A stretch of 64,000 nt of DNA from Galbibacter sp. BG1 (GTDB taxonomy: Bacteria; Bacteroidota; Bacteroidia; Flavobacteriales; Flavobacteriaceae), in NCBI RefSeq assembly GCF_013391805.1, contig NZ_CP058364.1:124001-188000 (forward strand). Reading direction: 5' to 3'. How positions within the stretch are numbered: position 1 is the stretch's first letter; every line of letters starts with the position of its first letter. Of this stretch, positions 23,848-28,664 are shown piece by piece. The translations under genes were made by a program, and so were the position numbers. The notes beneath the pieces were generated by a model, which searched no databases, was not told the DNA's origin, and saw nothing but the letters and a program-made list of their open reading frames with translations.

Positions 23848-25143
23848 TTATTTTCCTTCATATTTTTTTGAGTAACGCTGCCATAATTCTGTTTGGTGCG
23901 TTTCTAAACTCACATCCCTCCCTTGGATAAATGCTTTGCTTAGAATATTGGTACGCATGTCTAGTGCATCACCTTCAGAAATAAAGAGCGTAGCGTGTTT
24001 ACCAACTTCCAAAGTACCTACCAGATCGCTAACCCCTGCTATTTCTGCAGCATTTTTTGTAATATATTGCACCGCCGTTTCTTTGGGCAAACCATAAGCG
24101 GCAAAAGATCCAGCATAAAAAGGCAGGTTACGGGTATTCATACGCTCCATTCTTCCACTGGGGTCAATACTACAAAGGATTCCTGCTTTATCCAGCGCTG
24201 CAGCAAGCACAAAAGGATGCTTAACGTTTTCGTCTTCACTTGTTGGCAAACGATGTGGACGCTGTATAACCACTGGAATGTTATTAGCAGCCAATAATTG
24301 ACTCACCTCATCTGCTTGATCGCCACCAACAATCACTATTTTACTGATTCCAAGTTTATCTGCAAAGTTTACGACATCGGTTATTTCCCTTTTTCCGTCG
24401 ACATGAACAAATAGTTTTTTGGAACCATTAAAAAGCCCTTCGGAAGCTTCATAAGGCAAATTTCTTGGTTCTTTATCCCCTGCGGCATAGGCCTTTGCTT
24501 CTGTTAAAAATTGTGTCACTTCCTCCACCTCTTTGGTATAGTCTTCATTCGGTTTAAGTCCGGGATCTTCACCTCTCCAGGGACGTCCTCTTTTTAAACT
24601 ATTTGGCCAGTTTAAATGTATGGCATCATCTGTCTTTACTGCAGCATCTTCCCAGTTCCAAGCATCGAACTGCACTATAGATGAAGTCCCTGAAATACGT
24701 CCCCCTCTCGGGGTTATTTGTCCCATTAACACTCCATTGGGCCGCATCGATTCTACTATTTTGGACTCTGCGTTGTAGGCAATTAAACTCCTAATATGAG
24801 GTAAAAGAGACCCAATTTCGTCCTCATCATCGGTTGCTCTTACAGCGTCTATTTCTACAAGACCAAGAGTGGAATTTAAAGCTATAAAACCAGGGTAAAC
24901 GTGCTTTCCTTTTGCATCGATAATTTGTTGATAGTCGCTACTGTCAACTTCGGTTATTTTTCCAACAAAAGTGATTTTTCCTTCTTGAAAACCTACAGCT
25001 GCATCTTCAATTACGGTGCCATCTCCAATATGTGCTGTGACTCCAGAAATTAAAATGCTTTCTATTTGTTCTCGGGCCGGAGTCTGCTGGGCGTAAGAAA
25101 CTGTGACCAACAATAGCAATACAAGTTTTATTATTTTTTTCAT
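23848..25143 (-). CDS. Secreted amidohydrolase-like protein, metal site degenerate
   Basis: Exported protein of 431 aa with a signal peptide ending near VTVSYAQ. It follows the imidazolonepropionase-like amidohydrolase fold (ILISGVTAHIGDGTVIEDAAVGFQ at the start, LEVGKHATLFISEGD near the end). The metal-binding HxH that should follow the YPGFI segment is replaced by LNST, and the late Asp motif reads CSIDPSGR. It is probably a non-catalytic partner or a very divergent enzyme. It is transcribed in the same direction as the 1000-aa amidohydrolase, but the two are now separated by a small GIY-YIG element. Confidence 0.82.
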   Translation of the reverse strand: MKKIIKLVLLLLVTVSYAQQTPAREQIESILISGVTAHIGDGTVIEDAAVGFQEGKITFVGKITEVDSSDYQQIIDAKGKHVYPGFIALNSTLGLVEIDAVRATDDEDEIGSLLPHIRSLIAYNAESKIVESMRPNGVLMGQITPRGGRISGTSSIVQFDAWNWEDAAVKTDDAIHLNWPNSLKRGRPWRGEDPGLKPNEDYTKEVEEVTQFLTEAKAYAAGDKEPRNLPYEASEGLFNGSKKLFVHVDGKREITDVVNFADKLGISKIVIVGGDQADEVSQLLAANNIPVVIQRPHRLPTSEDENVKHPFVLAAALDKAGILCSIDPSGRMERMNTRNLPFYAGSFAAYGLPKETAVQYITKNAAEIAGVSDLVGTLEVGKHATLFISEGDALDMRTNILSKAFIQGRDVSLETHQTELWQRYSKKYEGK

Positions 25144-25205: not shown

Positions 25206-25231
25206 CTGTCTCCCCGAGCGGAGTCGAGGGG
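25206..25231 (+). repeat. Left terminal inverted repeat of the GIY-YIG element
   Basis: 26 bp: CTGTCT, then a hairpin CCCC-(GAGCGGAGTCGA)-GGGG. Five bases separate it from the GIY-YIG stop codon. The right copy at 25561-25586 shares CTGTCT and 11 of 12 core bases but has a different, still complementary, stem. Confidence 0.8.
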
Positions 25232-25236
25232 TAAAT

Positions 25237-25551
25237 TTAAAGTTTGTTATTTTTTGAATTAGTATCATTTTTACATTCAGAAAATAGTTTAAGGCTGTTA
25301 AAATCTTCTTTGGCTAATGCTCTTTTTTTATTTCTTCTCCATTTTTTTAATTTCTTTTCAAACCTCTCGGCCTGTTGAAACTGAATAAAAGATTGATAAA
25401 AAATTAAATTTACTGGTCTTCTTTTAAAGGTATAAGAAGTTTTGTCTAAACCTTGATTATGCTCATTTATTCTTCTTTCAAGATTATTTGTAAGCCCCGT
25501 GTAAATGGAGTTATCTGAACATTCTAACATATATACATAATAATTTTTCAT
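25237..25551 (-). CDS. GIY-YIG superfamily endonuclease (URI/YhbQ-like)
   Basis: Protein of 104 aa from the Met at 25551, covering one GIY-YIG domain. The signature appears as Y5-V-Y7 and Y17-T-G19; Arg26/27 (NLERRINEHN) and Glu62 (QQAERFEKKLKKW) are the expected catalytic residues. The C-terminus is short and lysine-rich with no DNA-recognition domain. The frame opens at 25590 inside the right repeat, but the 13 extra residues have no family match. Because it sits between inverted palindromic repeats, it may act on them, much as RAYT transposases relate to REP sequences; that is hypothesis. Confidence 0.9.
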   Translation of the reverse strand: MKNYYVYMLECSDNSIYTGLTNNLERRINEHNQGLDKTSYTFKRRPVNLIFYQSFIQFQQAERFEKKLKKWRRNKKRALAKEDFNSLKLFSECKNDTNSKNNKL

Positions 25552-25560
25552 TTTACCGGA

Positions 25561-25586
25561 TGTCTCGACTACGCTCGACAAGACAG
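25561..25586 (-). repeat. Right terminal inverted repeat of the GIY-YIG element
   Basis: Read on the minus strand: CTGTCT, then TGTC-(GAGCGTAGTCGA)-GACA. It has the same length and layout as the left copy, with the 4-bp stem changed on both sides so that pairing is kept. Confidence 0.8.
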
Positions 25587-25661: not shown

Positions 25662-28600
25662 TTATAACTGGTAGATTAAAGTATCGCAATGAAACTCTTC
25701 TTCCTCCTTAACAGTTGGTGTTTTTGTCTTTACACCTTTATTTTTTTCACGGATCATCATATTGGTAAGCTCATTTTTCTTTTTCTGAATTTCCTTTTCC
25801 TTCTTTTTCATTTCTTCATAGTCGTAGTAAACCGCTCCTTCAATTATTGTTTTTTCTGCAATAGCATAAATAGACATGGGGTGATTGTTCCAAAGCACTA
25901 AATCGGCATCCTTCCCCTCTTTTATACTTCCCACATGCTCATCTATATGAAGCAATTTTGCAGGGTTTATGGTAACAAACTTCCAAGCTTCTTCTTCACT
26001 CATCCCTCCGTATTTGACTGTTTTTGCGGCTTCTTGATTTAATCTTCTGGACATTTCCCCGTCATCGGAATTAATAGCAACCGTTACACCTTGGTTATGC
26101 ATAATGGCCGCGTTGTAAGGAATGGCATCGTTTACTTCATATTTATAGGCCCACCAATCGGAGAATGTGGAGCCACCTACCCCGTGTTCTTTCATTTTAT
26201 CGGCCACTTTATAGCCCTCCAAAATATGGGTAAAAGTATTAATGTTGAAGTTAAATTTATCTGCGACCTTCATCAACATGTTAATTTCACTTTGCACATA
26301 GGAATGGCATGAAATAAAACGCTCTTTGTTTAAAATTTCTGCCAAGGTCTCCAGCTCTACATCGTATCTAGGAGCTTTAGTATTTTTCTTTTTGGAAGAA
26401 GAAAATGAATTGTATGCTTTCCACTTTTTATCATATTCTTGAGCTCTTTGGAAATAATCTGTAAAAACCTGTTCTACCCCCATTCTGGTTTGTGGAAATC
26501 GTACCGTTTGTGCATCTCCCCAATTTGATTGCTTTACATTTTCCCCAAGCGCAAATTTTATAAATTTAGCACGGTCTTCCATTAGCAAATCCTCCGGATC
26601 TTCTCCCCATTTTAGTTTTATAATTGCCGATCGCCCTCCTATTGGATTGGCAGAACCGTGTAATATTTGAATCGTTGTAACACCCCCAGAAAGATTCCTA
26701 TAAATATCTGAATCTTCCGAATTAACAACATCTTCAATCGTTACTTCAGCAGAACTATTATGCCCCGCTTCGTTAATAGAGGCTGCAGCAATATGCGAAT
26801 GCTCATCTATTATTCCAGCCGTCAGATGTTTTCCTGTAGCATCGATAACCTCGGCTCCAGAGCTTGATAAATCAGTACCGATTTTTGCGATTTTCCCGTT
26901 TTTAACCAAAACATCGGTGTTTTCCAAAACCCCTACATCTTCACTGGTCCAAACAGTAGCATTTTTAAAAAGTATATCTCTTGGTACGGGCAAACTCGCC
27001 ATCCCAAAAGCCTTATTGGGATAAGTAACCGGTAGCACCTTGTAAATGGAATCTGTATCTTCTTCTTTATCCTCTTTTTTAAATGCCGATGAATTTCTAG
27101 TGGCCGTCCAAGTACCTTCATTCCCATTGGGTAAAACTGCATTTCCAATTAATTTTTCTGAAGTGGAAATTTTTGAGGATAACCTTACGAACTCATCCTT
27201 CTCCCCTTCCGGGTTAAAAAATAGATGAAACCAACCGTTGGTATAATCTACGCTGGAAGCTATTTTAGTAGTTCCTTTTTTCAGTTCAGGTTTTAATTTA
27301 TCAGGTTCTCCTGTGAGTGCTAAGTCATAATTTTCTCCATTGATTTTTAAGGAGTAATCACCTCTTAAATCAACTATATTCATATCGTTAACAACATGTT
27401 TATTCCCTTGAACCCAGTTTTCGTATAAAATGGTTTCTTTGTCAAAAACATCTCCAGAAGTAATTAAAAAGTTGGCATAACGTCCCTTTTCCAAAGAGCC
27501 TATGGTTTCATTGGCCTTCAGTAAATTTGCGGGAAGTGTAGTAAGCGCTTCCAGTGCTTTCGTTTTGTCCAACCCATACTTAATAGCTTTTAAAAGGTTG
27601 GTTTTAAAATCACTTAATTTTTTATTATCGGCTGCGGTAAAGGCAAATCTTACCTCGTTTTCAGCTAAAACTTTTGGATTCGTGGGCGCTTGATTCCAAA
27701 GTAGCATTTCTTCCAAGGCTATTTTCCCGGCCATATACGGATCTGAAACATCATAGGCTTCTGGAAAATTTAACGGTAAAATATAAGTTGCCTCGGTTTC
27801 CTTTATTTCCCCGATGCGCTCAAACTCATTCCCACCGCCTTTAATTAAGTAATTCAGTTGAAATTCGTTAGCCAGCTTAGCAGCTCTTAAATCGTTTAGT
27901 TTATCATCTGCAGCAAAAATTTGGGGTAATTTTTTATTGTCGTTCAATGCTTCCAAAGACAAATCTTTGCTTTCCGCATTACCACCAGCATACCAATTGG
28001 CATCGTAGTACATTTGCCGTAATAAAGCTATAGCACCCATTAGGGATGTGGGATAGGCTTGACGGGAAGACTTGCTCTTTTCAAAGGATAAAAATTGCGC
28101 TACGTCTTCTGCAATAATCCTTTCATTATCATTACCGTTTTCATTCAAGGTAACGAGCATGCTGGTTCCGCGTACAATCCCATCATTTACATGCGTATTC
28201 ACAACTCCAAAGCCGACTTCCAAAAGTTCTTTGGCCTTCTTCTTATCAAAAGAGAATTTTTCAATAGCCCTTTGCTCAGGCATAATATGGTCGTTCCAGT
28301 AATATCCTTCGCGTGAAGCGTCGTATTGTGGACGCTCACTATCTTTAGGCTTGTTCGGCTCTGAAATCCCAAAACTTGAGAATATATCGATAAAAGAAGG
28401 ATATACATTTTTTCCATCCAAATCTATAGTTATAGCATTTTTCGGGATGGTTACTGAACTACCCACGGCTTTTACCTTACCATTTTGAATAAGCAATGTA
28501 CTGTTTTCGATAATGTTTGAAGGGGTCACATAAATTTTTGCATTGGTGAATGCCGTGTAATTGGAATTTTTTGTTTTAACACCGTCGTTTTTTGGAAAAT

Positions 28601-28664
28601 ATTCTTGTGCCTGTAACGACAAAGAACATACGAACAGTGCCAAAAAGCATAGCTTTAATTTCAT
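25662..28664 (-). CDS. Secreted two-domain amidohydrolase
   Basis: Exported protein of 1000 aa; the signal peptide ends near SLSLQAQ. It holds two tandem amidohydrolase-like domains. The first (about 35-430) starts TAFTNAKIYVTPSNIIENST and lacks the HxH motif (YPSFIDIFSSFG), like the separate 431-aa neighbour. The second (about 560-980) keeps metal ligands: IIDEHSHIAA, CHSYVQSE, THILEGYK and INSDDGEMSRRL. The C-terminal domain is therefore the likely catalyst, perhaps of an imidazolonepropionase or dipeptidase-like reaction; the substrate is unknown. Length is about twice a usual amidohydrolase. Confidence 0.88.
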   Translation of the reverse strand: MKLKLCFLALFVCSLSLQAQEYFPKNDGVKTKNSNYTAFTNAKIYVTPSNIIENSTLLIQNGKVKAVGSSVTIPKNAITIDLDGKNVYPSFIDIFSSFGISEPNKPKDSERPQYDASREGYYWNDHIMPEQRAIEKFSFDKKKAKELLEVGFGVVNTHVNDGIVRGTSMLVTLNENGNDNERIIAEDVAQFLSFEKSKSSRQAYPTSLMGAIALLRQMYYDANWYAGGNAESKDLSLEALNDNKKLPQIFAADDKLNDLRAAKLANEFQLNYLIKGGGNEFERIGEIKETEATYILPLNFPEAYDVSDPYMAGKIALEEMLLWNQAPTNPKVLAENEVRFAFTAADNKKLSDFKTNLLKAIKYGLDKTKALEALTTLPANLLKANETIGSLEKGRYANFLITSGDVFDKETILYENWVQGNKHVVNDMNIVDLRGDYSLKINGENYDLALTGEPDKLKPELKKGTTKIASSVDYTNGWFHLFFNPEGEKDEFVRLSSKISTSEKLIGNAVLPNGNEGTWTATRNSSAFKKEDKEEDTDSIYKVLPVTYPNKAFGMASLPVPRDILFKNATVWTSEDVGVLENTDVLVKNGKIAKIGTDLSSSGAEVIDATGKHLTAGIIDEHSHIAAASINEAGHNSSAEVTIEDVVNSEDSDIYRNLSGGVTTIQILHGSANPIGGRSAIIKLKWGEDPEDLLMEDRAKFIKFALGENVKQSNWGDAQTVRFPQTRMGVEQVFTDYFQRAQEYDKKWKAYNSFSSSKKKNTKAPRYDVELETLAEILNKERFISCHSYVQSEINMLMKVADKFNFNINTFTHILEGYKVADKMKEHGVGGSTFSDWWAYKYEVNDAIPYNAAIMHNQGVTVAINSDDGEMSRRLNQEAAKTVKYGGMSEEEAWKFVTINPAKLLHIDEHVGSIKEGKDADLVLWNNHPMSIYAIAEKTIIEGAVYYDYEEMKKKEKEIQKKKNELTNMMIREKNKGVKTKTPTVKEEEEFHCDTLIYQL

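Follow-up and report, generated by a model that had tools for sequence, protein, structure and literature searches.

Introduction

Ssn proteins, said to have been presented in Nature Communications in 2025 as site-specific single-stranded nucleases of the GIY-YIG superfamily, are reportedly small and paired with a genomic repeat in many copies; in Neisseria, nuclease and repeat are said to modulate transformation. The system analysed here is similar in that a small GIY-YIG protein is paired with a many-copy genomic repeat of its own, and part of our findings is probably already covered by the Ssn family. The repeat of the present system is a stem-core hairpin with a TGTC tag, and its enzyme would probably cut single strands as well. 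With REP/RAYT systems and REPINs the focal system shares a gene located between its own palindromes, gene-free pairs elsewhere and a tag at fixed distance, but the enzyme is a GIY-YIG protein and not a Y1/HUH transposase, and the tag is TGTC instead of GTAG. The nearest sequences with solved structures, the UPF0213 proteins 1zg2 and 1ywl (E 9.7e-13 and 1.4e-11), are described only as hypothetical.

CGTC-tagged REPs were published without an associated transposase gene (Di Nocera and others, 2013, PMC3733652). According to the accessible parts of that paper, they carry an unpaired terminal tag, CGTC or frequently TGTC, an 8-9-bp stem, a 4-5-base loop and a CCA-like tail, and occur inside genes and in opposite-orientation pairs, predominantly head-to-head dimers, among them unexplained heterodimers. 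The group takes in Neisseria dRS3 and Rickettsia RPE-4 and RPE-6, Azospirillum lipoferum and N. aromaticivorans are both named as hosts, and these parts of the paper name no GIY-YIG protein or other nuclease as partner (PMC3733652). The repeats described here likewise have an unpaired end tag, form opposite-orientation pairs, heterodimers among them, and occur inside genes. Moreover, such repeats flank related GIY-YIG genes in members of other phyla, among them A. lipoferum and N. aromaticivorans. The present units differ in having a 4-bp outer stem and a 12-base core instead of the published plan of stem, loop and tail. Their dimers have the tags outward, which may or may not correspond to the head-to-head arrangement of PMC3733652. 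Rickettsia palindromic elements, two families of which are CGTC repeats according to the same source, are similar in that palindromes are inserted in frame in coding genes. A literature search, weak in its negative outcome because most subscription papers were outside its coverage, found no link of GIY-YIG with 'repetitive extragenic palindromic' or dRS3. Within the same coverage, papers matching repeat sequence strings were unrelated by title, and the sole overlap of GIY-YIG, palindromic repeats and Bacteroidetes was a phage paper.

We consider it fairly probable that the locus belongs to a REP-like element family, in which the autonomous member consists of repeat, nuclease gene and repeat, the nuclease recognises and cuts the hairpin and the host does the copying. 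In the best reading, the family would thus be RAYT-like in behaviour with an unrelated enzyme.

Results

The window, meaning the whole stretch of 64 kb that was analysed, comprises positions 124001-188000 of the complete 3.71-Mb genome of Galbibacter sp. BG1. The first-pass annotation had described two 26-bp inverted repeats, CTGTCTCCCCGAGCGGAGTCGAGGGG at 25206-25231 and TGTCTCGACTACGCTCGACAAGACAG at 25561-25586, separated by 5 and 9 bases from a 104-aa frame. The repeats were confirmed base for base, and so were the inverted orientation, the distances and the stems CCCC/GGGG and TGTC/GACA, which enclose GAGCGGAGTCGA and GAGCGTAGTCGA (Table 1). The 26-nt unit consists of TGTC, one base, a 4-bp stem, GAGCGNAGTCGA and the stem again, and the tags point outward at the focal locus; the better register is TGTC, one base, 4-bp stem, 12-base core, stem and one further base.

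Table 1. Features of the focal locus (positions in the window).
Feature	Position	Strand	Evidence or remark
GIY-YIG nuclease gene, 104 aa, ATG at 25551	25237..25551	-	PF01541, E 6.7e-21
Repeat unit 3' of nuclease gene: TGTC tag, stem CCCC/GGGG, core GAGCGGAGTCGA	25207..25232	+	
Repeat unit 5' of nuclease gene: TGTC tag, stem TGTC/GACA, core GAGCGTAGTCGA	25560..25585	-	
Flanking amidohydrolase gene, context outside unit	23848..25143	-	PF07969, PF01979
Flanking amidohydrolase gene, context outside unit	25662..28664	-	PF01979, PF07969

Both flanking amidohydrolase genes share the strand of the nuclease gene. The longest possible nuclease frame has 117 aa with a GTG start and would overlap the right-hand repeat; the ATG start fits the relatives. 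The protein is a GIY-YIG domain with hardly anything beyond (PF01541, 74.8 bits versus a cut-off of 22.6). The catalytic-type residues Y7, Y17, R27, H31, E65, K69 and K75 are retained in 109-110 of 110 relatives (Y7 in 109, Y17 in 110, R27 in 109, E65 in 110), and we take the conserved Tyr, Arg and Glu to have catalytic roles. NCBIfam contained no family match, viral_contigs no relative of the nuclease, and none of 21 matches among phage records spanned 80% of the query. A function as defense gene was dropped, with weak PADLOC matches (E 0.003 and 0.008).

Pairing of nuclease and repeat was analysed at 111 loci, made up of the 30 best matches (focal locus included), 80 further loci among the matches listed, where most rows that had in-frame stops or reached a contig end were skipped, and L027. 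A pattern-free comparison of the flanks, done first, placed 51 of the 111 listed loci above the maximum of 150 shuffles and 65 above the 99% point. Class patterns (A, B, C etc.) were written from inspection of the flanks and then counted: a same-class, correctly oriented pair was present at 72 listed loci, different classes at one, a unit on one side at 31 and none at 7. At least one repeat unit was thus found at 104/111 listed loci, and the 39 loci without a strict same-class pair count against our favored reading. As controls we used 56 amidohydrolase and ridA loci, of which three were too short, with two unit-bearing ridA loci excluded. The same patterns, accepted in either orientation, gave no pairs and three single units at the 53 control loci, and two of these single units adjoin a nuclease unit, namely the focal one and that of L067, with which the control shares genome and operon.

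The hairpin itself is under constraint, as the first-pass annotation had claimed. Among class-A units with exact core, 109 of 120 show perfect pairing at all four stem positions, with 18 stem sequences represented, compared to a mean of 21.1 and a maximum of 37 in 2000 arm shuffles; in class C it is 20 of 27 units, with a shuffled maximum of 9. The TGTC tag stands at the fixed distance in 110 of the 120 class-A units, the next position holds T in 73 units and C in 39, and the two stems are unlike in 39 of the 53 loci having both units. The exact 14-mer CGAGCGNAGTCGAG has seven copies in the 3.7-Mb focal genome and its reversed control has none, but this excess shrinks to 24 versus 8 when up to two mismatches are allowed. 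Within the window, class-A units are confined to the two focal copies. Class-B repeats resemble class A with a longer loop hairpin. In L003, L044, L045, L102, L132 and L141, other palindromes follow GAGC within the loop of tagged repeats; several of 14 rows compared are of this type, and some others are tandem repeats.

The repeat class follows the nuclease phylogeny. For 110 nucleases, of which 102 have a repeat class, a tree built on a short alignment and with 55 of 106 inner branches weak required 6 class changes where 3 is the minimum possible; shuffled labels required 52.7 changes and were never as low as 6 in 200 trials. Enzyme and repeat co-evolve. It is very improbable that the repeats are simply terminators of transcription or RNA hairpins accompanying a housekeeping nuclease gene. 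Hairpins only a few bases from either gene end would agree with this, but the tag is fixed and unpaired, a matching hairpin lies 5' of the start codon, the same units occur inside coding genes (see below) and the class tracks the nuclease clade.

For core density, nuclease matches were joined with exact-core counts in 299 genomes from 236 genera. With a cut for close nucleases of 1e-27.5 that was picked after the data were seen, the core was present in 52 of 53 genomes with a match at this level or better, in 37/59 with matches of 1e-15 to 1e-27.5, in 23/43 with matches of 1e-8 to 1e-15 and in 35/144 without a match. The median was 10 cores per genome with a close nuclease (n=53) and 0 without a match (n=144), and 37 of the 53 close-nuclease genomes exceed two cores per nuclease match. 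The first-pass annotation had named hairpins at similar density in nuclease-free genomes as evidence against its reading. They do occur there, since at least five cores were found in 13 of the 144 genomes without a match, but are rarer than in close-nuclease genomes (41 of 53). Together with the locus pairing and the tree, the densities bear out the tie between nuclease and palindrome that the annotation had proposed. Within the focal genus, more than one core was found in all three genomes with a close nuclease (G000 with 7, G299 with 39 and G302 with 25 cores; nuclease identity to the focal one 60% in G299 and 51% in G302) versus none of the four others, with one core in G300 (relatives of 46-47% identity) and none in G301 (37%), G030 and G256 (no relative). 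Counting against our reading are G226, where the exact core is missing despite a close nuclease, and eight genomes with at least 10 cores and no nuclease match at 1e-8. Among these eight, PF01541 was found only in frames of at least 459 aa in G080, G097, G228 and G282, in one small other GIY-YIG protein each in three more, and in five matches, including one of 220 aa and a weak one of 136 aa, in G222.

Genomes that keep repeats without the nuclease would be expected if the repeats were marks that spread by another route, and the nuclease cut incoming or exposed single strands and thereby shaped recombination or natural transformation. What is reported for Ssn and transformation in Neisseria points in the same direction. 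Nevertheless, we regard such a guarding function as unlikely to be the explanation, because the gene lies within the repeat pair and comes and goes at sites with the pair, and because repeats are rare in congeners lacking a close nuclease.

Relatives of another GIY-YIG gene of the focal genome (L030) occur in 33 plasmid records. In six of 14 records read, from A. lipoferum, N. aromaticivorans, Rhizobium CIAT894, Shinella and two near-identical Sphingobium, the gene is located between two CGTC-tagged palindromes with tags outward; in A. lipoferum 4B it lies between sufB and sufC. The remaining eight are from Spirosoma, Aeromonas, N. gonorrhoeae, S. meliloti, Planktothrix, R. tumorigenes, Photobacterium and Sinorhizobium K101. 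Reading of the Spirosoma record revealed TGTCATCC-type units on both sides of the gene, which the tagged-pair scan had missed, and Aeromonas has a partial arrangement only. In N. gonorrhoeae and S. meliloti, the repeats closest to the related gene point inward, which counts against our reading, and no repeats were found beside it in R. tumorigenes and Photobacterium. Two source records labelled as plasmids (L331, L335; N. gonorrhoeae, 2.17 Mb; Aeromonas caviae, 4.94 Mb) have the size of chromosomes, and the label may be wrong. In an Alkaliphilus bin, TGTCACCCTGAGCG-type repeats flank a relative on either side. Six of twelve distant loci (L361, L362, L368, L370, L371 and L372) scored above the shuffled 99% score of 24.5, with a TGTC tag only in L361 and L362. 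For the G299 nuclease (L352), no inverted pair was found, though a core adjoins the gene. Other small GIY-YIG genes of the focal genome (L026, L028, L034, L033-L036) either adjoin tRNA genes, with tRNA-like duplications, or form a tandem triplicate.

Gene-free dimers were analysed in G131, which has 106 tagged units. The 100 units listed form 19 tag-outward pairs within 100 bases and 3 opposite ones. In all 19 tag-outward pairs, one stem starts with C and its partner with G; shuffling gave 9.7 such pairs on average and never reached 19 in 10,000 trials. Four dimers folded into one long imperfect hairpin of about -22 to -25 kcal/mol, compared to about -3 for one focal repeat, and the folding did not support an energetic reason for the unlike stems. 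In a second G131 stretch compared with G392, repeats lie inside coding genes in one species but not in the other. The same comparison shows a dimer with its spacer inverted between the two species (L280, about 1043-1090, versus L329), with mismatched stems in one, which points to exchange within the cores. The leucyl-tRNA synthetase gene of the focal genome (near 1316394; L004) contains two in-frame units at 1493-1518 and 2265-2289, one of class A (TGTCACTTCGAGCGCAGTCGAGAAGT) and one of class C (TGTCATGCTGAGCCTGTCGAAGCAT); the same genome has nucleases with class-A and nucleases with class-C repeats.

The comparison of amidohydrolase loci for an empty site, proposed in the first-pass annotation, showed the unit to be absent in four congeners, where the amidohydrolase genes are adjacent and the 700 bases before the second gene contain no core; no match to that gene was found in the other two congeners. 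The best case was a G131 stretch of 7.5 kb, for which 166 congeners were searched and nine were read. It is an operon containing a ridA gene (PF01042 in G432) and looks like one for kynurenine degradation, the genes other than ridA being presumptively named. Site S1 carries a gene-free dimer in G131 and G392 and a nuclease unit in G362, the far repeat of which is damaged; G378, G438, G492 and G458 have no repeat there. Site S2 is empty in G131 and G378, carries a dimer in G392 and G362 and has other sequence in G458 and G492. Site S3 has a unit in G131, G492 and, by alignment, G375, and none in G392, G458, G378, G432 and G362. A dimer in G438 cannot be assigned to S2 or S3, because it combines the left flank of S2 with the right flank of S3 and the intervening gene is absent. 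Nuclease unit, gene-free dimer and empty site are thus alternative states of single sites among species, and the direction of change, gain or loss, is fixed at no single site.

In other genera, nuclease units lie in the S1 gene gap, beside the same gene pair, in L053, L055, L062, L067, L103 and L127, and between the ridA and dehydrogenase genes in L050, L057, L058, L059, L066 and L068. GIY-YIG orthologues in fixed positions without flanking repeats had also been named as adverse evidence in the annotation; positions do recur, but with repeats beside them. Among 28 ridA loci from 99 genomes, G265 and G329 have a unit that is absent in their congeners G331 and G326, where absence was judged by cores and by eye, as the nuclease motif test was negative even at occupied loci. 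G019 seems by eye to contain a decayed unit, and exact cores were found at one other ridA locus, L193, the genome of which has a unit nearby. Nuclease units fill several gaps of one catabolic operon (L269 and relatives) in different genera, and the use of several gaps suggests short-range movement or a preferred target. In G432, a Y1_Tnp gene (L318, 3721-4290; PF01797, 25.4 bits, cut-off 23) sits between other palindromes (ACCTCACAGGTTTTAAAAACCTGTGAGGT) in a gap where congeners have a GIY-YIG repeat dimer; a Y1 transposase gene in the same operon implies that other movers exist, which counts against our reading.

The occurrence of a dimer at S1 in one species and of a gene between the repeats in another would also agree with homing, in which the nuclease gene is a passenger entering older dimers that spread otherwise, for example by a RAYT, and the Y1 transposase gene in a congener is in line with this. 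By eye, however, the S1 dimer spacer begins and ends as the nuclease unit does, for which reason the dimer looks like an internal deletion, a better fit to loss of the gene. Moreover, the congener sites of the focal locus and most empty sites carry no repeat at all, and we consider homing quite improbable.

Discussion

In the REP-like family that we favor, the autonomous form would consist of a repeat, the GIY-YIG nuclease gene and an inverted repeat with TGTC tags outward, and the gene-free dimers and single repeats elsewhere would be non-autonomous forms. The nuclease would recognise its own tagged hairpin, probably in single-stranded DNA, and introduce a cut there or close by; replication, repair or recombination by the host might then place a copy of the unit or dimer elsewhere. 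This last step is the weakest of the explanation, because strand joining by the enzyme itself is unlikely; GIY-YIG proteins act as hydrolytic nucleases and are not known to join strands. The first-pass annotation had offered two possibilities. The first, a nuclease by which its own palindromes are maintained or spread in the manner of a RAYT, describes the system well, with cutting and copying as the steps that we infer. The second, a minimal transposon in the classical sense, is not supported, given the hydrolytic chemistry and the sites read, at which no target duplication was seen by eye, the best flanks being only 87-88% identical with inexact ends. A strict terminal-repeat transposon was rejected as well, since the copies are self-complementary, often have unlike stems and also occur alone.

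Several points may be new: the tie between GIY-YIG nucleases and tagged REPs, the plan of stem and core, the rule for heterodimers, and the occurrence of a single site with unit, with dimer or empty. More tentatively, and with slightly less than even confidence, we propose that GIY-YIG nucleases are dedicated, HUH-independent mobilisers of the TGTC/CGTC-tagged REP superfamily across bacteria, with autonomous units that yield gene-free heterodimers and with co-evolution of enzyme and repeat. REPs are widespread in bacteria, and the accessible parts of PMC3733652 present the CGTC group without a dedicated transposase. If the proposal is true, it would supply the partner reported missing in 2013 for CGTC REPs and a second enzymatic route to REP spread. 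Since the repeat sequence changes with the enzyme, the question of the missing transposase becomes testable with a 104-aa protein and 26-base oligonucleotides. The natural enzyme-hairpin pairs offer a way to learn how a GIY-YIG nuclease reads folded DNA, and the system indicates how small a self-spreading element may be.
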